Shown here: piece after piece, positions 6,280 to 35,411 of the stretch
How positions within the stretch are numbered: the stretch's first letter is position 1
How the letters are laid out: each line of letters begins with the position of its first letter
Assembly (NCBI GenBank): GCA_009781515.1
Contig: WQXY01000023.1
Location: 1 to 35,411, forward strand
Origin: Oscillospiraceae bacterium
GTDB lineage: Bacteria; Bacillota; Clostridia; Oscillospirales; Oscillospiraceae
Direction: 5' to 3'
Length of the DNA: 35,411 bases
The notes under the pieces: model-generated
Seen by the model: the letters and a program-made list of their open reading frames with translations, nothing else
Told to the model about the DNA's origin: nothing
Databases searched by the model: none
Position numbers and translations under genes: made by a program

Positions 6280-9200
6280 GTGAAAAGAGCATTCAAGCAA
6301 ATAACTACTCCATCCTCATCTGGAGGTTTGGGAAATAATTTTGAAAACCGTGTTCAAGCGTCATTTGCTGTTCTTATGCTTGCAAATGGGTTTTCTCCAT
6401 GCTTACCTTCTTGGCCTATATATAAAATAAAGTTACAAGGAAAATATGAAGGTTTCGAAACTGATGATTTAATAGTATATGTAAAAGATCAATACTCAGA
6501 TAAAAAAGCAAAACTACTTGGACAGGTTAAACATTCATTATGTATTACAAACAATAATTCTGATTTTAATGATGTAATTCGAGCAGCGTGGAGAGATTTT
6601 AATAATTCCAGCTTATTCAATGCAGAAGCAGGTGATATTATCGCTCTTATTACATGTCCGCTTTCTTCAACTGATACAAATAATGTCAGAGCATTGCTTA
6701 GACAAGCGGAACATTCGTATGACTCCGACGATTTTTTAATGCGTGTTGAAAAAGAAATTTTTACCAGTAACAGGCAGCGTGAAAAGTTAAAGGTATTCAA
6801 AAATGTATTAAAAAAAGCAAATGACAACAATGAAATTTCAAACGATCAATTATGGCTGTTTTTAAAGTCGTTTCGCTTACTAATTTATGACTTAGATATA
6901 GAAGGAGTAATAATTTCGTTACTGAGAACAATTTTACAACAACATACTCTTGGAGATGTTGAAGGCATTTTAGCAAAACTTATTGAGATTGCTGCTTGGG
7001 AAAACGAAAATGCTGGTTACATTACACTAGAATCTATATCTGATGAAATACGGTCAAAATTTTCTGTTAAGCCAATGGAAGTCATTCCCAAGAAGTTTAC
7101 TATAAAAAGCGATGAAGTTGATTGGAATATTTCTCAGTATGGTCAGGAACTCTCATATATGGCATTGTTAGGAGCTTGGAATGAAAACTCAGAATATGAT
7201 GTAGATATAGTAAAAAAACTAATGGGAAAAAGTGATGCTGATTGGATTCGAATTTATCGAGATATTTTACAGCTTCAAAACAGTCCACTTGACCTAAAAA
7301 ATAGTATATGGAGAATTAAAGACCAATCAAGCATGTGGGATATATTTGCACCAAGGATGTTCGATGAAACATTAAATATTTTCTGTGAATGTATTGTTGA
7401 AGTGCTTAGCGAAAAAGATCCGCAATTCACGTTACCTACTGAAAAAAGATATGCCGCAAGCATATATGGAAAAAATCTTAACTATTCATATCCGTTAAGA
7501 AAAGGTCTTGCTAATAGTCTGGCTTTAATTGGATGTTATCCTGAAAAGTTAAAGAGAGGTACAGATAATAAAGCTGAGTTAATAACATCGCAATGTATTA
7601 GTAAGATACTTGATGATGCAGATTGGGTGTTATGGGCAAGCTTGAAAGATCTGTTACCCACTATAGCAGAAGCTTCTCCCCAAGCATTTCTCGAGGCAGT
7701 TAAAAAAGGTTTAGATAGTTCTGACGCTCCATTTTTAACACTTTTCAAACAGGAATGTGGCGGTATAACAGGAAGAAATTATCTAACTGGATTGTTATGG
7801 GCTTTAGAAGGGCTAGCGTGGGATGAATCATTACTTGTTCAAGTGACTATGATTCTGGGTGAGCTTGCTAATATAGACACTGGCGGGAATTGGGGTAATC
7901 GACCGAAAAACTCTCTTACAACAATTTTTCTTCCGTGGTATCCACAAACATTAGCACAAGTTAGTAAGAGATTTGCTGCTATTGAGGTGTTGATAAAGGA
8001 GTTTCCAAGTGTTGCTTGGAGTTTACTAATCAGCTTACTACCAAATAACCATCAAACATCAATGGGATCGAAAAAACCTCTTTATAGAAATCACATAAGT
8101 AATGATTGGAAACCCGATATATCAAACAAGGATTATTGGAATCAAATTTCTGCATATGCAGAGTATGCTGTTGAGCTAGCAAATAACGATCCTCAAAAGC
8201 TTCAAGAAATCATAGGAAGCTTAGGTAACCTACCTGAGAAATCGTTTAACAAAGCTCTTTTGCAATTAAAGTCCTGCTCAAAGATGATAGGAGAGGATGA
8301 AAAGGTTGCTCTTTGGACTAAATTATTACACTTTACAAAAAGACATGAACGATTTCCTGATGCAAATTGGTCGTTAGATTCCAGTATTATCAAAAGAATT
8401 AAAGAAACTATGGTAGTCCTACAACCAACAAGTCCAATAAACTACTATCAATTTTTGTTTAGTAATAGAGATTGGGAATTATATGAAAAAGATGACGAAA
8501 ATGAAGACTGGCAGACACAAAGTAATCGCTTAGAAGAGCGTCGAAAATCAGCACTCTTAGAGATAATTGAGTTTGGAGGTACAAATTCTTTATGTGACTT
8601 TGTTAAAAAAGTTGAGCAACCTCAAAAAGTAGGAAGCACATTAGCTGGTTTTGCGGACAAATCCTACGATAAATTATTTCTTCCAAATTTTATGTTGAAT
8701 GAAGAAACTTCTATAGATATTTTTGTTAGTGCATACATATATAGAAAATATTTTCATATAGGCTGGGAATGGTTAAATACACTGGAAATTGATAAATGGG
8801 ATGACTGCCAAAAAATTGAATTCTTTCTCAGAGTTCCCATATCATCCGAAGTATGGAATCTAATTGATAAATCTTTTTGTAATTTAAAGACGCAATATTG
8901 GAAAAGAGTTAATGTAAATGTATACACGGTTAATATTTCTGATTTAGGTGTCGTTATCGATAATTTAATTGAGTTTGATAGACCATTGGCAGCTGTGAAT
9001 TGCTTTCATCATTACATATTTGAAAAAGTGTCGTTTGATAAAGATAAACTTGTTAATGCGTTACTTTGTGGTATATCATCCAGTGAATCTATTTCTGCAA
9101 TTGATCAGTACAATTTTGTAGAATTAATTAAATTTTTACAAAATGATGAAACAGTAAATGAAGACAATTTGTTTCGTATTGAATGGGGATATTTTAACTT

Positions 9201-9834
9201 ACTAAATAAATACGATGGAGCACCACATATAACACTCGATAAAAAATTAGCGAATGATCCTGACTTTTTTAATGATATAATTTGCTTAGTTTATCGATCA
9301 AAAGATGATAATACTCAATCGCATGATGATATAGATGATGTAACAAGAGCTATTGCCCGGAATGCTTATACATTATTAACCGAATGGCAAACACCGCCTG
9401 GAGTGGATAGTGATGGTAATTTTGATTCCAATCAGTTTATGAACTGGCTTGTCAATGTAAAAAGTCTTTGTGATGAATCAGGTCGGCTAGATGCTGCACT
9501 TACTTATATTGGAGAAGTTCTTTTTTATACTCCACCTGAAATAGATGGTTTTTGGATAAATAAAGTAGTAGCAGAAGTGTTAAACGAAAAGGACGCAGAA
9601 CGAATACGAAATGGATTTAAACTTAAAGTATATAATTCTCGAGGGGTACATTCAGTAGATCCTACTGGAAAACCAGAAAAAAAGTTAGCATCAAAGTATC
9701 AGGTGCACGCTGAAGAAACGGAGAATGCAGGATATCCGCGATTTGCAAACACACTTAGAGAAATAGCACGTAATTATGAAAGAGATGCAGAACGTATAAT
9801 TTCAGAACATTTATTGCCAGAAGATGAGATATAA
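6280..9834 (+). CDS. large defence-type protein with Cap4/DUF4297-like nuclease domain
   Basis: An 1184-residue protein that I place among anti-phage effectors without a firm family name. The N-terminus has a PD-(D/E)xK layout as in Cap4/DUF4297 nucleases: GGLGNNFENRVQA with Glu22, ETDDLIVY with Asp62-Asp63, and GQVKHS with Gln82 and Lys84. The remaining 1000 residues look all-helical, rich in Trp and Leu, with stretches such as DADWVLWASLKDLLP and GGNWGNRPKNSLTTIFLPWY typical of long helical-repeat scaffolds. I found no Walker A/B pair, so it does not look like a STAND/Avs protein. The GTG at 6280 is poorly supported: AAGG is 1 base upstream and GGGG 6 bases; no better start precedes the nuclease domain. 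It is divergent from the R-M operon and 62 bases before the AlbA_2 gene, so may be cotranscribed with it. It probably senses an invader through the helical part and cuts DNA. Confidence 0.65.
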   Translation: MKRAFKQITTPSSSGGLGNNFENRVQASFAVLMLANGFSPCLPSWPIYKIKLQGKYEGFETDDLIVYVKDQYSDKKAKLLGQVKHSLCITNNNSDFNDVIRAAWRDFNNSSLFNAEAGDIIALITCPLSSTDTNNVRALLRQAEHSYDSDDFLMRVEKEIFTSNRQREKLKVFKNVLKKANDNNEISNDQLWLFLKSFRLLIYDLDIEGVIISLLRTILQQHTLGDVEGILAKLIEIAAWENENAGYITLESISDEIRSKFSVKPMEVIPKKFTIKSDEVDWNISQYGQELSYMALLGAWNENSEYDVDIVKKLMGKSDADWIRIYRDILQLQNSPLDLKNSIWRIKDQSSMWDIFAPRMFDETLNIFCECIVEVLSEKDPQFTLPTEKRYAASIYGKNLNYSYPLRKGLANSLALIGCYPEKLKRGTDNKAELITSQCISKILDDADWVLWASLKDLLPTIAEASPQAFLEAVKKGLDSSDAPFLTLFKQECGGITGRNYLTGLLWALEGLAWDESLLVQVTMILGELANIDTGGNWGNRPKNSLTTIFLPWYPQTLAQVSKRFAAIEVLIKEFPSVAWSLLISLLPNNHQTSMGSKKPLYRNHISNDWKPDISNKDYWNQISAYAEYAVELANNDPQKLQEIIGSLGNLPEKSFNKALLQLKSCSKMIGEDEKVALWTKLLHFTKRHERFPDANWSLDSSIIKRIKETMVVLQPTSPINYYQFLFSNRDWELYEKDDENEDWQTQSNRLEERRKSALLEIIEFGGTNSLCDFVKKVEQPQKVGSTLAGFADKSYDKLFLPNFMLNEETSIDIFVSAYIYRKYFHIGWEWLNTLEIDKWDDCQKIEFFLRVPISSEVWNLIDKSFCNLKTQYWKRVNVNVYTVNISDLGVVIDNLIEFDRPLAAVNCFHHYIFEKVSFDKDKLVNALLCGISSSESISAIDQYNFVELIKFLQNDETVNEDNLFRIEWGYFNLLNKYDGAPHITLDKKLANDPDFFNDIICLVYRSKDDNTQSHDDIDDVTRAIARNAYTLLTEWQTPPGVDSDGNFDSNQFMNWLVNVKSLCDESGRLDAALTYIGEVLFYTPPEIDGFWINKVVAEVLNEKDAERIRNGFKLKVYNSRGVHSVDPTGKPEKKLASKYQVHAEETENAGYPRFANTLREIARNYERDAERIISEHLLPEDEI

Positions 9835-9896: not shown

Positions 9897-11360
9897 ATGC
9901 CATTTGAACACGATAGTATTATAAACATAATAAACGAAGCACGCAGGTATAACACAGAAAAGCCTTGGATTGAGTTTAAGGTTAATAATTCCAATCCTCA
10001 GGAAATCGGTGAATATATTAGTGCATTGTCAAATACCGCAGCTCTTTTTAACCAAAATTATGGATTTGTAATATGGGGCATTAATAATGTCACTCACGAA
10101 ATTGAAGGTACGAAATTTATTCCGGAAAAAGAAAAGAAAGGCAATCAGTCTCTAGAGCTATGGCTAAGTACTTTGATTGAGCCACAAGTACAATTCTATT
10201 TTCATACTGTAAAAATTGAGGGAAGAAGTGTTGTTCTACTGGAAATTGCAGCAGCATTTTCATCGCCTATCAAATTCCAAGGGATTGAATATATAAGGAT
10301 AGGTTCTAATAAAAAGAAACTTAAAGATTTTCATGATACTGAGCGCCAGTTGTGGTCGATATTTTCCAGAGAAGTATTTGAACAAATTGTAGCAATAGAA
10401 AGTGCATCTTTGGACACTGTATTACGAATGCTTGATTATAGGGATTATTACGAAAGATTGAAAGAACCACTTCCGAGTAAGGATGATTCCATAATTGAAA
10501 GATTCATAGAAGAAAAGATGATTGCTCATAATGAAGCAGGCAGTTACAACATTTTAAACTTAGGTGCGATACTATTTGCTCACAGACTTTCTGATTTTCC
10601 TACATTAGAACGTAAAGCAATTCGCATCATAAGCTACAGTGGAGAAGGAAAAGCATCAAGTTCCAGTAGAGAAACAATTCTAAATAAGGGTTATGCCAAT
10701 GGATTTGAAGATTTAATAAGTTTCATATTTGGTATGGTTCCCGATAATGAAGATTTTAGTTCTCCACTTAGAAAAGATATTCCGGTATATCCGGAAGAAG
10801 CAGTAAGAGAGCTTATGGGTAATTTAATTATTCATCAAGATTTTCACATGCGGGGTACCGGACCTATGGTGGAGTTGTTTAAGAATAGGATGGAGGTTAC
10901 TAATCCCGGTGCGCCATTAATTGAAAAAGATCGTTTCGTTGACCATCCGCCGGTATCACGCAATGAAACAATGGCAGGATTACTCAGACGGCTTGGCATT
11001 GGTGAAGAACGCGGATATGGATTTGATAAAATCGTTTTAGAAACAGAATCGCACCAGCTACCTCCTCCTCATATAATGGCGTATGATACTCATACTAGAG
11101 TGACACTCTATGCACATAAATCATTTTCAAAGATGAGTAAAACCGAAAGATTACAGGCATGTTATCTTCACGCTTGTGTAAAATGGGTTCTACAGGAAGA
11201 TATGACGAATTCGTCCTTGCGTGAACGGTTTGCAATTGATGAAAAAAATAAAGCAATGGTGTCCCGTTTACTGGGTGATGCTTGTAAAGCAGAGTTGATT
11301 AAAAAACATACAGAAGTTACTTCAGATAAATATCGGAGATATATACCTTACTGGGCATGA
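9897..11360 (+). CDS. AlbA_2 (Schlafen-like)/GHKL ATPase/winged-helix protein
   Basis: A 487-residue protein of the COG2865 type often called an RNA-binding or transcription-regulator protein. Residues 24-130 form an AlbA_2/Schlafen-like domain (WIEFKVN, GEYISALSNTAAL, GFVIWGI). A HATPase_c_4 (GHKL) region covers about 290-400: N-box-like ELMGNLIIHQD (305-315), then VTNPGAP and GYGFDKIV. The last 90 residues look like winged-helix DNA binding. ATG at 9897 has AGGAGG 10 bases upstream. Such genes are frequent in R-M and defence islands. It could regulate the island, for example through the repeats just downstream. Animal Schlafens use a related fold to cut tRNA, so a nuclease role cannot be excluded. 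Confidence 0.8.
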   Translation: MPFEHDSIINIINEARRYNTEKPWIEFKVNNSNPQEIGEYISALSNTAALFNQNYGFVIWGINNVTHEIEGTKFIPEKEKKGNQSLELWLSTLIEPQVQFYFHTVKIEGRSVVLLEIAAAFSSPIKFQGIEYIRIGSNKKKLKDFHDTERQLWSIFSREVFEQIVAIESASLDTVLRMLDYRDYYERLKEPLPSKDDSIIERFIEEKMIAHNEAGSYNILNLGAILFAHRLSDFPTLERKAIRIISYSGEGKASSSSRETILNKGYANGFEDLISFIFGMVPDNEDFSSPLRKDIPVYPEEAVRELMGNLIIHQDFHMRGTGPMVELFKNRMEVTNPGAPLIEKDRFVDHPPVSRNETMAGLLRRLGIGEERGYGFDKIVLETESHQLPPPHIMAYDTHTRVTLYAHKSFSKMSKTERLQACYLHACVKWVLQEDMTNSSLRERFAIDEKNKAMVSRLLGDACKAELIKKHTEVTSDKYRRYIPYWA

Positions 11361-11365
11361 TTTTT

Positions 11366-11584
11366 AGTTGACTGGCTTTTGCATTAATTATATTAATGTT
11401 ACGGATGACCCTTGCAATTAGGCGATATTTTTAGTTGACTGTCAGTTGACTGAATAGTTATTGATATTGCAGAATTATAATATGTAATTGTTAATGTTAG
11501 TTGACTGAACATTCTGTTTTTCTATTATAAATATCATTCTCCATTGCTATTGGGAAACATTTTTAGTTGACTGTCAGTTGATTG
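11366..11584 (+). promoter_or_regulatory. six phased AGTTGACTG repeats upstream of rloC-like gene
   Basis: AGTTGACTG occurs at 11366, 11433, 11444, 11499 and 11565, and with one mismatch (AGTTGATTG) at 11576. Start-to-start steps are 67, 11, 55, 66 and 11 bases, nearly all multiples of 11, so the sites would lie on one face of the helix. Most sites extend leftward as TTTTTAG or GTCAG; CAGTTGACTG is an imperfect palindrome (CAGT-N2-ACTG). The block fills the 266-base gap before the anticodon nuclease gene. A multi-site operator is the simplest reading. The promoter is probably near the last pair (GGTATATAAT at 11584-11593 resembles a -10). Confidence 0.75.
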
Positions 11585-11626
11585 GTATATAATTGTTTTT
11601 ACTTTGGAATATTTTAAGGAGATAAA

Positions 11627-13834
11627 ATGTCGATAAAAATAAATCTATCTAAACACGCTGATAAATTTACTACAGAAAGCAATGAATTTCTTATCGAAAA
11701 AAAAGTAAACTTTATTTTTGGTAAAAATGGTACAGGTAAGACAACAATTGCTGATGAAATTGTTAATCAATTTTCTAATGAATACGATATATGTGTGTTT
11801 AAAGATTTTGACGGAGTTGCTGAAAATGCACGCTTAGATGCAGTTGCACTAGGAGTTGAAAACAAAAATATACAAAAGAAAATTGATGTTATAGATGTAG
11901 AGATTATTAACATCAAAAGTGAAATTTCACAACCAAAGGCAGATGATAAAGAAGCAACCAATCTATATACGCAGGCTACAAAAACACAAATAGCCTTTAG
12001 CGATGCAGAAAATGCACTCTCAAAATTCTTTACCAATTCAGCTGCACAAATAAAAAAGCAAACAAAACCACAAATTACAACATCTGGATATAATAAGAAT
12101 AATTTCGAACACGATATTAATAATGCCAGTTTATTATCAGATGATTTTATTGCTTCTCATAAAATTACTATTGCCGCAGAGAAGAAATCTGATGTTTCAA
12201 GATTTTCATTTTCTGAAATCGATTTTGCTTCATACTTAAAATCTGTGAATGAAATTATTCAACTATGTGTTGAACAACCTCAAAACATACCTGAGTTAAA
12301 AGATAATGTAGATAAACAAAATTTTGCGAAACTCGGAACCGAGATTCATGAACACAAAAGTGGTGAAGTATGTGCTTTTTGTGGTAATGAAATTAAAGAA
12401 GAGCGCTGGCAAGAACTTGCTCAATACTTTAATGAAGAATATAGTAAACTTGATAAACGAATTACTAAAGGATTATCTGTTATTGATGCCGGATTTGAAG
12501 CTGTACGCAATGTAGGAAAATTGAATGAACGCGACTTCTATGATAGATTCATACAAAATGTAGAAAACATTAATTCCCAACTTGAAGCAAGAAAAAATGA
12601 ATATTACCACTTTTTAGAGTTTCTTAAAACCACACTTGAAGAAAAACGTCAGAATATGTTCTTCAAGTCGGACGCAATTATAGTCGACATACCACAAAGT
12701 TTCGATGATATTAAACAGGTTAGCGATGACTTAGTTACGAAGCATAACACGTTGACAAAGAACCTCAACGCTGAACAAGAAAAGGCTAGAGATGCGTTAC
12801 GTTGCCACGAAGTAAAGAAAATATTAGATAACTATAAATTTGACAAAAAAAACAAAGAACTTGTATCTTTAAAAGCTGCCAATGATTATACACAAAGCTT
12901 ATTAATGAATAGAAAAAGTGATCTTACAAAAAAATTAAATGAACGTAATAATTTACTTTTACAAACAAGAGATGAAGAGAAAATTGCAAACAAGATTAAC
13001 GACAGAATGGCAAGCATGGGGGTCGCTTCTTTTTCGTTAAAATTAGTTGAAAATGATGTTGAAAATCAAAAAGGACAATACCAAATAAAAGGTAATGATG
13101 ATGAAATCCGACCAATTACACAACTAAGCAAGGGCGAAAAAAATATTATTGCGTTTCTTTATTTTATTTTTAGCTTAGAAAATATAGAAAATAATAGTAA
13201 ACATAGAATAATTGTGTTTGATGATCCAATGACGAGTAACGACGATACAACGCAATATCTGATGATTGGAGAACTCCAAAATCTTTATCAGAATTTAAAA
13301 GATGGTAATTATTTTATTCTGCTTACGCATAATTGTCATTTTTATCTTAATGTTCGTCCATCGACAATGCCAACATATAAAGAAATTAAAAAGGGTACTA
13401 GAAAAGGATTATACGAAGAAGTTGGGTTATATGATAAATATGGAATTTACCACTTACTTCATGATAGTAAGCGTTCAACAATAAAAAATATTGATAAGTA
13501 TCAAAAAGACTTTAGAACAAATTATGAAGCTCTTTGGAAGGAACTTGTATATCTATATAAATCTGATGACGCTACTTCTGATATCATGTTAAATCCGTGC
13601 AGACGAATTTGTGAAACATACTTAAAATTCACAAAACAGAATGTAATGGATTTTTACTCTGAAAATAAAAGTGCAAAAAAACTATTTGATGTTAACCAAC
13701 ATTCGATAGATGATTTTGAAGCAGAGCAAAACGGGAGAAGCAAAGAAGACATAAAAACAATTCTTGAAGAACTTTTTAAAGTAAACAATGCAGAAAACCA
13801 TTTTAATGATCATTGGAAAGGTGGAGAACAATAA
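11627..13834 (+). CDS. rloC: RloC-like zinc-hook ATPase anticodon nuclease
   Basis: A 735-residue AAA_13/SMC-like ATPase whose layout fits RloC, the long zinc-hook relative of the PrrC anticodon nuclease. Walker A is GKNGTGKT (32-39). Coiled-coil arms flank a CAFC hook (Cys249, Cys252). The ABC signature is LSKGEK (500-505), Walker B ends VFDDP (530-534), and an LTHN switch follows. The C-terminal domain carries the PrrC-type triad: Arg659 and Glu663 in CRRICE (RxxxE spacing) and His692 in NQHSIDD, 29 residues on. PrrC/RloC enzymes cut or excise tRNA wobble-base positions when phage blocks restriction or DNA is damaged. The R-M operon sits in the same island, as in many rloC loci. The ATG has AAGGAG upstream, and a strong terminator follows. 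The family call is from motifs; tRNA target unknown. Other AAA_13 ATPases are the main alternative. Confidence 0.72.
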   Translation: MSIKINLSKHADKFTTESNEFLIEKKVNFIFGKNGTGKTTIADEIVNQFSNEYDICVFKDFDGVAENARLDAVALGVENKNIQKKIDVIDVEIINIKSEISQPKADDKEATNLYTQATKTQIAFSDAENALSKFFTNSAAQIKKQTKPQITTSGYNKNNFEHDINNASLLSDDFIASHKITIAAEKKSDVSRFSFSEIDFASYLKSVNEIIQLCVEQPQNIPELKDNVDKQNFAKLGTEIHEHKSGEVCAFCGNEIKEERWQELAQYFNEEYSKLDKRITKGLSVIDAGFEAVRNVGKLNERDFYDRFIQNVENINSQLEARKNEYYHFLEFLKTTLEEKRQNMFFKSDAIIVDIPQSFDDIKQVSDDLVTKHNTLTKNLNAEQEKARDALRCHEVKKILDNYKFDKKNKELVSLKAANDYTQSLLMNRKSDLTKKLNERNNLLLQTRDEEKIANKINDRMASMGVASFSLKLVENDVENQKGQYQIKGNDDEIRPITQLSKGEKNIIAFLYFIFSLENIENNSKHRIIVFDDPMTSNDDTTQYLMIGELQNLYQNLKDGNYFILLTHNCHFYLNVRPSTMPTYKEIKKGTRKGLYEEVGLYDKYGIYHLLHDSKRSTIKNIDKYQKDFRTNYEALWKELVYLYKSDDATSDIMLNPCRRICETYLKFTKQNVMDFYSENKSAKKLFDVNQHSIDDFEAEQNGRSKEDIKTILEELFKVNNAENHFNDHWKGGEQ

Positions 13835-14351: not shown

Positions 14352-14452
14352 AGTTGTACCACATTATATAATTTTTCAACTAATTGTGGTATAACTTCTT
14401 TGAAGAACTGTTGTACCACATACTTGACATTTTTACTGAATTGTGGTACAAC
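14352..14452 (+). promoter_or_regulatory. duplicated operator with embedded promoter for the toxin-antitoxin-like pair
   Basis: A 57-base unit is repeated. Each copy has a left arm GTTGTACCACA (14353; 14410) and a right arm TGTGGTAYAAC (14385/14386; 14442), with the same 21-base spacing, so each copy is an inverted repeat. The second copy contains a promoter: TTGACA (14424-14429), 17 bases, TACAAC (14447-14452), with the -10 inside the right arm. A bound repressor would block RNA polymerase, as in self-regulated toxin-antitoxin operons. Confidence 0.7.
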
Positions 14453-34461: not shown

Positions 34462-35411
34462 TTATGCTATTTTGTTAAGGATATCAACCGCTTTTTCTTC
34501 CTCACGCGGATATAAGTGTGAATATGTGTTCCATGTCTCCTCTACCTTTGCGTGACCCAAACGGCGGGCAATTTCTTGGATATTGATACCTTCATTGGCA
34601 AGTAATGAAACATGACTGTGGCGAAATCCGTGTATCTTTATTGGTTTCAGTCCTGCTTTGGTTGCATAATTAATGTTTTTTACAAACAATGTGGAATCCC
34701 GTAAGCTTCTCGTACATCCGCATATCCGGCAATCATCGGTAAAATGTTCCAATTGTTGCTGCCTTAACTTATGCTCATTCAGAATTTTCATTAGCGGTAG
34801 AGGGATTTGCAATGTCCTTACCGAGGATTTATTCTTTGGCGGTGTTTCTCTGTCTGCACCTTGCAACTTCTGAGCAATACTGCGGGTTACCGACAATAAC
34901 GTTCCGCTTATATCGCTCCATTTCAAAGCATGTATTTCACCCTTGCGGAGTCCGGTGTAGAAAGCGATGTTAAAGAAAACATAGAAGTCCCATTCAGACA
35001 TATCGTTATGTTTTTTCTGTCTTCCTTCCGCTGCTTGCTTTGCGGCGCTTATGTAATGCATAAACTCTTGTGCCGTATAGAAAACTAACTCTGTTTTCTT
35101 GTCTGTTTCAAAAGCATTTATAAAGTTCCCGACTTTTAATATAGGATTTCTCGGAATATACTCCATGTGTACCGCATAATTGAGAATTGCCCTTAATGCA
35201 CTGTATGCTTTTTTCTTTGTTGCAGGCGCCAGATTTCTTTCTTCAACCGTAAGCTTCCATCTCTGCAGCATTGCTGTTGAAAGTTTATTTAACTGTACAT
35301 TTTCCATTATCGGCTGAATATACAACTCATAAAGCTGCCTGTTAATGCGGATACTTGTTTCCCGAAGCTCATATTTTCTTACATTAGTATATTCTTCATA
35401 GAGTCTTTGCA
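34462..35411 (-). CDS. tyrosine recombinase/integrase, N-terminus cut by window edge
   Basis: A tyrosine integrase of Tn916/phage type; the frame is open to the window edge, so the true start lies beyond 35411 and 316 residues are visible. An arm/SAM-like core-binding domain (LSTAMLQRWKLTVEERNLAP) precedes the catalytic domain with Arg in TGLRKGEIHALKWSD, HGFRHSH (HxxR) and LGHAKVEETWNTYSHLYP with the nucleophile Tyr. All catalytic residues are present, so it should be active. Its 3' end faces the att-like repeat at 34399, and the element it belongs to probably extends right of this window. Confidence 0.88.
   Translation of the reverse strand, partial: QRLYEEYTNVRKYELRETSIRINRQLYELYIQPIMENVQLNKLSTAMLQRWKLTVEERNLAPATKKKAYSALRAILNYAVHMEYIPRNPILKVGNFINAFETDKKTELVFYTAQEFMHYISAAKQAAEGRQKKHNDMSEWDFYVFFNIAFYTGLRKGEIHALKWSDISGTLLSVTRSIAQKLQGADRETPPKNKSSVRTLQIPLPLMKILNEHKLRQQQLEHFTDDCRICGCTRSLRDSTLFVKNINYATKAGLKPIKIHGFRHSHVSLLANEGINIQEIARRLGHAKVEETWNTYSHLYPREEEKAVDILNKIA

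Follow-up and report, generated by a model that had tools for sequence, protein, structure and literature searches.

Arrays of 11-bp direct-repeat doublets follow bacterial Schlafen-type genes and are candidate DNA sites for the encoded proteins

The DNA sites of PhoB/OmpR-type regulators are built from head-to-tail half-sites with an 11-bp step. An array of direct repeats in a 35,411-nucleotide stretch of DNA from an Oscillospiraceae bacterium (hereafter the window) resembles such sites in having two tandem half-sites one helical turn apart, but no response regulator is implicated here, and the doublets, which are conserved in phase, occupy a fixed place after one gene. That gene encodes a protein of the bacterial Schlafen type. 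Bacterial Schlafens with SLFN_AlbA_2, HATPase_c_4 and winged helix-turn-helix (wHTH) domains have been named among backup effectors, and bacterial Schlafens are linked to BREX and related systems in at least 1,017 taxa (PMC12839542, in the sections available). The protein considered here shares their domain order and their defence neighbours; those sections describe no DNA sites, operator or intergenic element, whereas here a conserved 3' array accompanies the gene. RptR, a 9-kDa repressor of Type I restriction–modification (R-M) islands, recognises TAGCTA repeats in the promoter that precedes its gene (PMC12255303, available in part). Direct repeats controlling a defence island are the point of likeness. 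In the present case, by contrast, the owner is a 487-aa Schlafen, the sites lie 3' of the gene and the motif varies by lineage; TAGCTA is absent from positions 11361-11626, which therefore do not form an operator of the RptR type. The gene downstream of the array specifies the ABC ATPase, CxxC hook and R-E-H triad described for RloC, and the available part of that description mentions no operator, direct repeat or promoter (PMC2610378); the array is not RloC-specific. In a literature search at the level of titles and abstract openings, with bioRxiv and most subscription journals outside its scope, none of the papers listed described such an array beside Schlafen genes, and the doublet letters matched nothing in the literature text.

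The features of the locus, in window coordinates, are these:

9897..11360, + strand: gene for a 487-aa protein with SLFN_AlbA_2, HATPase_c_4 and a C-terminal winged helix; owner of the array and its likely reader
11361..11584, + strand: whole array, starting directly after the AlbA_2 stop codon; homologues have it similarly placed
11366..11374, + strand: single half-site AGTTGACTG
11433..11452, + strand: doublet 1, two half-sites with an 11-bp step
11499..11507, + strand: single half-site AGTTGACTG
11565..11584, + strand: doublet 2, with AGTTGATTG as second half-site, 132 bp after doublet 1
11588..11593, + strand: TATAAT just 3' of doublet 2, a possible but weak -10 element of an RloC promoter
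11616..11621, + strand: AAGGAG, read from the sequence as the likely ribosome-binding site of the RloC-like gene
11627..13834, + strand: gene for a 735-aa RloC-like ABC-ATPase/anticodon-nuclease homologue, the downstream neighbour and not the owner of the array

A preliminary description of this DNA had reported five exact copies and one near copy of a 9-base motif, restricted to the gap before the RloC-like gene. Both observations were reproduced. Exact copies of AGTTGACTG lie at 11366, 11433, 11444, 11499 and 11565 and AGTTGATTG at 11576, all on the + strand, with steps of 67, 11, 55, 66 and 11; across the 35 kb of the window the exact motif occurs five times on the + strand, never on the - strand and nowhere outside the array. 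The copies form a single-double-single-double layout with elements 67, 66 and 66 bp apart, and a 132-bp duplication may account for the stretch that holds both doublets. Sixty shuffles of the window yielded no 9-mer containing all four letters that occurred more than twice within 219 bp. Exact AGTTGACTG pairs separated by 40-70 bp are confined to the array in the whole genome (four in forward orientation, none for the reversed pattern). With up to three mismatches, AGTTGACTGNNAGTTGACTG occurs in three places in the genome, two of which are the array, against four for the reversed control, so that the looser count alone gives no excess. A promoter scan of the array returned two sites compared with 2.1 in shuffles, and the TATAAT at 11588..11593 was not one of the two. 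The exact window motif was also considered as a widespread element and rejected: AGTTGACTGTCAGTTGACTG occurs in no viral contig searched, and AGTTGACTGNCAGTTGAYTG in two genome contigs and one viral contig, none with the single-double layout. A DNA search of E. coli genomes and plasmids with the array region gave no match. A cyanobacterial contig from Kaiparowitsia (L013, 5163-5204) carries four tandem 11-bp units of nearly the window motif, without the single-double layout.

The assignment of the upstream gene draws on domain matches and a predicted structure. SLFN_AlbA_2 (Pfam PF04326, E 5.4e-19) and HATPase_c_4 (residues 320-404; PF13749, E 4.3e-18) are followed in an AlphaFold2 model (pLDDT 85.5) by a C-terminal wHTH at residues 415-484, with helices at 415-431, 438-445 and 449-464 and strands at 468-470 and 482-484; Pfam gave no match over this segment. 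Foldseek placed DIP2311 (3lmm) first; SLFN11, SLFN5, SLFN13 and SLFN14 domains came next, at low TM scores. The product of 9897-11360 thus appears to be a bacterial Schlafen with SLFN_AlbA_2, HATPase_c_4 and C-terminal wHTH, its tRNA or RNA cleavage being putative. The downstream product matches AAA_13 (E 4.2e-92), PADLOC PDC-S06 (E 1.7e-225) and PrrC (E 1.4e-5). It has a CxxC zinc hook, CAFC, at 249-252, with CxxC in all four aligned homologues, and R659, E663 and H692 are in register with the same four; a fifth homologue (G193), translated out of frame, was excluded from both counts. These residues correspond to the R-E-H anticodon-nuclease triad reported for RloC (PMC2610378, in the part available), and 11627-13834 can be assigned to RloC on its ATPase, CxxC and R-E-H features, with a putative nuclease activity. 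The defence-rich stretch also has, at 6280-9834 and just ahead of the AlbA_2 gene, a gene for a 1184-aa protein that matched nothing at E 0.001 in searches of Pfam, NCBIfam and PADLOC. Further downstream, four GTTGTACCAC-like sites alternate in orientation (14353 +, 14386 -, 14410 + and 14443 -, spanning 14353-14452) at the start of a 111-aa ORF (14443) that has an NTP_transf_8 partner; they resemble the operator of a toxin-antitoxin-like unit.

Although the array lies in front of the RloC-like gene, which had suggested an operator of RloC genes, the evidence from relatives assigns it to the gene before it. A DNA search of 19 genomes of the same genus gave matches with E up to 1 in 18 of them, mostly background. 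One genome, G009, showed three collinear weak matches. Here an array of the same kind directly follows an AlbA_2 gene 67% identical to that of the window, and a gene of the opposite strand converges on the array; RloC is not next to it, and a search of the whole G009 genome at E 0.001 gave no RloC match. The array thus goes with AlbA_2. The converse check covered 300 bp upstream of each of five RloC homologues that have no known AlbA_2 neighbour, although the plasmid gene tables used are incomplete and one contig (G193) offers only about 540 bp upstream. The 11-bp doublet was absent in four, and the fifth had a single A/T-rich match. These five rloC homologues thus show no such array, an outcome that the preliminary description had itself named as refuting its suggestion. 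On both grounds the RloC operator was rejected.

The 3' flanks of AlbA_2 homologues were then surveyed at 46 loci, for 45 of which flank sequence was available; the loci came from plasmids, phages, IMG/VR contigs, a single E. coli genome and other genomes. Relatives in viral contigs (21 loci) were found with an alignment as query, the AlbA_2 protein alone having found none. A doublet was scored when an 8-mer recurred, one mismatch being allowed, in the 250 bp that follow the stop codon; the count was made after removal of three near-duplicates from 30 near loci, of one from 15 far loci, and of L057, which has no flank. Head-to-tail doublets of period 11 were present in 22 of 27 non-redundant homologues with at least 39.5% identity, a cut chosen after a first look at the flanks, and in none of the 14 homologues below it. 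Other periods from 8 to 30 were found in 0-7 of the 27. An in-gene control for period 11 gave 0/27. Two further controls, one taken before the start codon and the other 600-850 bp downstream, each gave four loci in subsets of the 27. By a strict count over 34 loci, 14 have at least two doublets, ten have one and ten have none; some of those with one strict doublet, such as L068, L042 and L050, have a weaker second copy at a significant shift of 120, 99 and 98 bp. The first doublet often begins within 15 bp of the stop codon, and at 43-106 bp in other loci. The half-sites in the first 250 bp are on the gene strand, apart from two minus-strand near matches in L052, and the 300 bp upstream of the Schlafen gene hold a single near match in only 5 of 24 loci.

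The sequence of the half-site changes with the lineage. Desulfosarcina has a TTATGTGACTGGTATGTGATT doublet twice, Providencia and E. coli have TTGCTTGAT-type doublets, also twice, Rhodobacterales have TTGATCGGGTTTTGATY-type doublets, and Aliarcobacter has TTGCTTCACCGTTGCTTCACTG and TTGTTTGACCGTTGTTTGACTG; the named hosts with doublets belong to Pseudomonadota, Campylobacterota and Thermodesulfobacteriota. Matches to the doublet pattern are confined to the array in all nine records searched (three plus six, with up to two or up to one mismatch). The exact 30-base D2 stretch was found in four of 5,426 E. coli genomes, those with the Schlafen gene; ten others have a 21-base match of 95% to it, within a hypothetical protein. 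In E. coli YZ22PE67 (L078, 121-3813) the Schlafen gene and its array lie beside genes for a retron St85 family effector and a reverse transcriptase. Two distant homologues, from Acidovorax and Hymenobacter (L076 and L072), lack doublets and carry after the gene a pair of single direct repeats, with spacings of 66 and 71 bp, and in the viral contig L160 a motif like that of Acidovorax adjoins a TTGATCGGG doublet. Taken together, the array is very likely real and conserved beside Schlafen genes in several bacterial phyla. The idea of a phased multi-site array of the cooperative-binding type is strengthened, such arrays following AlbA_2 homologues across phyla.

It had further been proposed that all sites lie on one face of the helix. 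At 10.5 bp per turn this does not hold for the window, since 66 bp corresponds to 6.29 turns, and the only sites in phase are the two members of a doublet. Phasing itself survives in another form. The best self-match shift within flanks ranges from 66 to 132 bp, and 21 of the 45 loci have a significant repeat shift, one of which (L077) was left out as a duplicate of L042. For the remaining 20 loci a scan from 9.5 to 13 gave a best period of 10.70 bp with R 0.72. Fourteen stricter matches gave 10.75 with R 0.87, and fourteen hand-picked loci, one per lineage, 10.75 with R 0.88. Over all sets the best period is 10.65-10.75 bp and R runs from 0.72 (n=20) to 0.89 (n=12), with p about 5e-5 relative to random spacings. 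When the period is fixed at 10 or 12, R is lower, at 0.56-0.74 and 0.37-0.54 respectively. All of these statistics ignore common descent. They suggest that doublet spacings keep one helical phase across relatives, which is not the same as lying on one face, and to this extent the earlier hint of phasing was good.

Later searches of 391 and 398 genomes supplied held-out loci. All five held-out genome loci (L270, L272, L273, L274 and L277) have two doublets, spaced by 98, 108, 96, 96 and 111 bp respectively, the first of them lying only a few bases after the stop codon. A held-out viral sequence (L265/L266, with identical flanks) has only a period-10 doublet and no significant second copy, so that 11-bp doublets are present in five of six distinct loci. 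The five share related TTAACTTG-type half-sites and are thus not five independent motif types. Taken alone, their spacings fell short of significance (R 0.63, p 0.13; p 0.07 when projected on the earlier phase). Together with the strict set (n=19) they gave a best period of 10.80 with R 0.79, reached in none of 20,000 simulations. In one of these loci (L277, with L278; G151:C2:190633-192088) the Schlafen gene is split over two reading frames and the 3' doublets are still present.

The preliminary description had also named the AlbA_2/winged-helix protein as a candidate binder, a suggestion favoured by the association of the array with AlbA_2 homologues and by the C-terminal wHTH of the model. 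Hand-picked half-sites were compared with the proteins, leaving out L064, which lacks the N-terminus. Half-site similarity follows protein similarity (Mantel test, none of 500 permutations as high). The correlation is present in every domain and is higher for the AlbA_2 segment than for the wHTH (Spearman 0.61 vs 0.56; partial 0.35 vs 0.19), so that common descent alone could explain it. When residues 10-405 are controlled for, the four variable 5' bases are best tracked by the wing at 474-487 and the helix at 421-438, and the TTGAY core by residues 441-455; for the whole half-site the top window is residues 154-168, outside the wHTH. L032 and L052 have one common half-site and are 45% identical over residues 10-405, 38% over the helix part (406-465) and 74% over the wing tail, the last being the highest value among all pairs under 50%. 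The half-site therefore differs between lineages and tracks the Schlafen protein, with a suggestive link to the wHTH in particular.

On balance, judged from sequence comparison and the structural model, the array is probably a cis DNA site of the Schlafen-type protein encoded upstream, whose wHTH would bind the doublets and loop the DNA at the 3' end of the gene encoding it; both of these steps, wHTH binding and looping, appear likely. The C-terminal winged helix would contact each half-site, two monomers sitting side by side on a doublet, and a dimer or oligomer of the protein could bridge the doublets to form a DNA loop. Such a loop would restrain transcription through the end of the Schlafen gene into the next gene. 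Where the layout is operon-like, the distance from the end of the last repeat to the next start codon is 10-45 bp: 42 bp for RloC, 12 bp for HsdS, 44 bp for a PLD anti-phage protein, 45 bp for a gene annotated as a pseudomurein-binding repeat protein, 36 bp for an HsdR-like gene, 31 bp for a gene we name MazE-like on our own reading, and 10 bp for HsdR in the single-repeat Acidovorax relative. With this placement, loss of binding during attack would release the closely following gene, which in the window is that of the RloC-like nuclease. In Burkholderia (L035) the next gene lies outside this range, 309 bp after the last doublet. Other loci have no gene closely 3' of the array, a terminator-like hairpin following it in L270, L273 and L274 and none in L277. 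Control of the next gene therefore cannot be the whole story; where no close downstream gene exists, the target of the loop might be the Schlafen gene, or the loop might keep the protein at the locus that encodes it. For the purpose of the array, the main options are transcription control and DNA tethering.

Bending between the doublets may assist loop formation in many proteobacterial loci. The consensus of the bending protein IHF is WATCAANNNNTTR. When one mismatch is allowed, 11 of 18 proteobacterial or phage loci match it between the doublets, where 2.3 would be expected; the controls gave 4/23 in genes and 2/22 downstream. The result is exploratory, since the motif was seen before it was named and five intervals (L035, L036, L038, L048 and L051) have no called first doublet. 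The window array has no good IHF-like site, the best having two or three mismatches.

It has also to be considered that the repeats act as RNA, forming a 3' untranslated element of the Schlafen mRNA that serves as target or guide for the Schlafen RNase domain. In favour are the location of the array, at the transcript's 3' end, the link of Schlafen domains to RNA, and the terminator-like hairpins after the last doublet in the three held-out loci. The folding z of 21 flanks averages -0.48, with only the window (-2.70) and L052 (-3.47) as outliers, and there is no common structure, which speaks against an RNA element; the 11-bp step and a spacing phase near 10.7 bp fit double-stranded DNA instead. 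We regard this explanation as unlikely.

A second alternative takes the doublets as sites for a third protein, for example another regulator of the defence island. It draws on the covariation, which overall is no stronger for the wHTH than for other domains, and on doublets in phage contigs. The TTGATCGGGTTTTGATYS doublet, of the TTGATCGGG class, occurs in 94 viral contigs against eight for the same letters with one inserted base, a period-12 control made for TTGATCGGGTTTTGATYS only, and IMG/VR phage contigs (L079-L138 and L139-L218) carry scattered single doublets of the same sequence classes. AlbA_2 was found near TTGATCGGGTTTTGATYS doublets in none of 80 examined viral stretches and near TTGCTTGAT-pattern doublets in 2 of 60. 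The bases before the first TTGATC are biased to TTTC (42, 52, 63 and 51 of 75 contexts), and the middle-motif pattern is absent near the dispersed doublets (0/41 and 0/79 sites). Binding by the Schlafen protein does not explain the viral doublets that have no AlbA_2 in the examined stretch. A third protein would nevertheless have to contend with the Schlafen gene as the constant partner where neighbours differ, as in G009 and the E. coli locus, and with the restriction of the exact D2 stretch in E. coli to Schlafen carriers. Its chances seem small.

One variant of Schlafen binding would accommodate the phage doublets. Here the array would be a parking place, not an ordinary operator, with the Schlafen RNase held inactive in a bent loop where its own gene ends and freed when invading DNA breaks or competes for that loop; the same protein would read the scattered doublets as triggers or decoys. 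The variant is rather improbable.

A recombination site, with arm-type repeats around an IHF site as at phage attachment sites, is very improbable. The order of doublet, IHF-like site and doublet does recall an arm-and-bend layout, and integrases are found about 0.5 kb from the AlbA_2 gene in an array-bearing viral contig (L108, the contig of L047), elsewhere in another (L127), 2.3 kb before the match in phage Musica, and after the AlbA_2 gene in satellite-phage relatives. Those last relatives (L044 and L045) lack the array, however, and among the window ORFs scanned with Pfam no integrase gene adjoins it, the only tyrosine integrase (34462-35409) lying 23 kb away. Within R-M operons, moreover, both doublets are preserved, and the analysis revealed no crossover core. 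Least credible of all is a role as regulatory region for rloC: the array does end 42 bp before the RloC-like start codon in the window, but it follows AlbA_2 where RloC is missing, precedes genes for HsdS, the PLD anti-phage protein, an HsdR-like protein and others, and was not seen upstream of the five RloC homologues examined.

The finding that the array belongs with the Schlafen-type gene moves the question of regulation from RloC to that gene. No account of how this type of Schlafen is controlled was found in the literature searched. A conserved, lineage-specific DNA site beside each gene predicts a target for the wHTH, candidate specificity residues, and a required helical phase for the spacing of the doublets.
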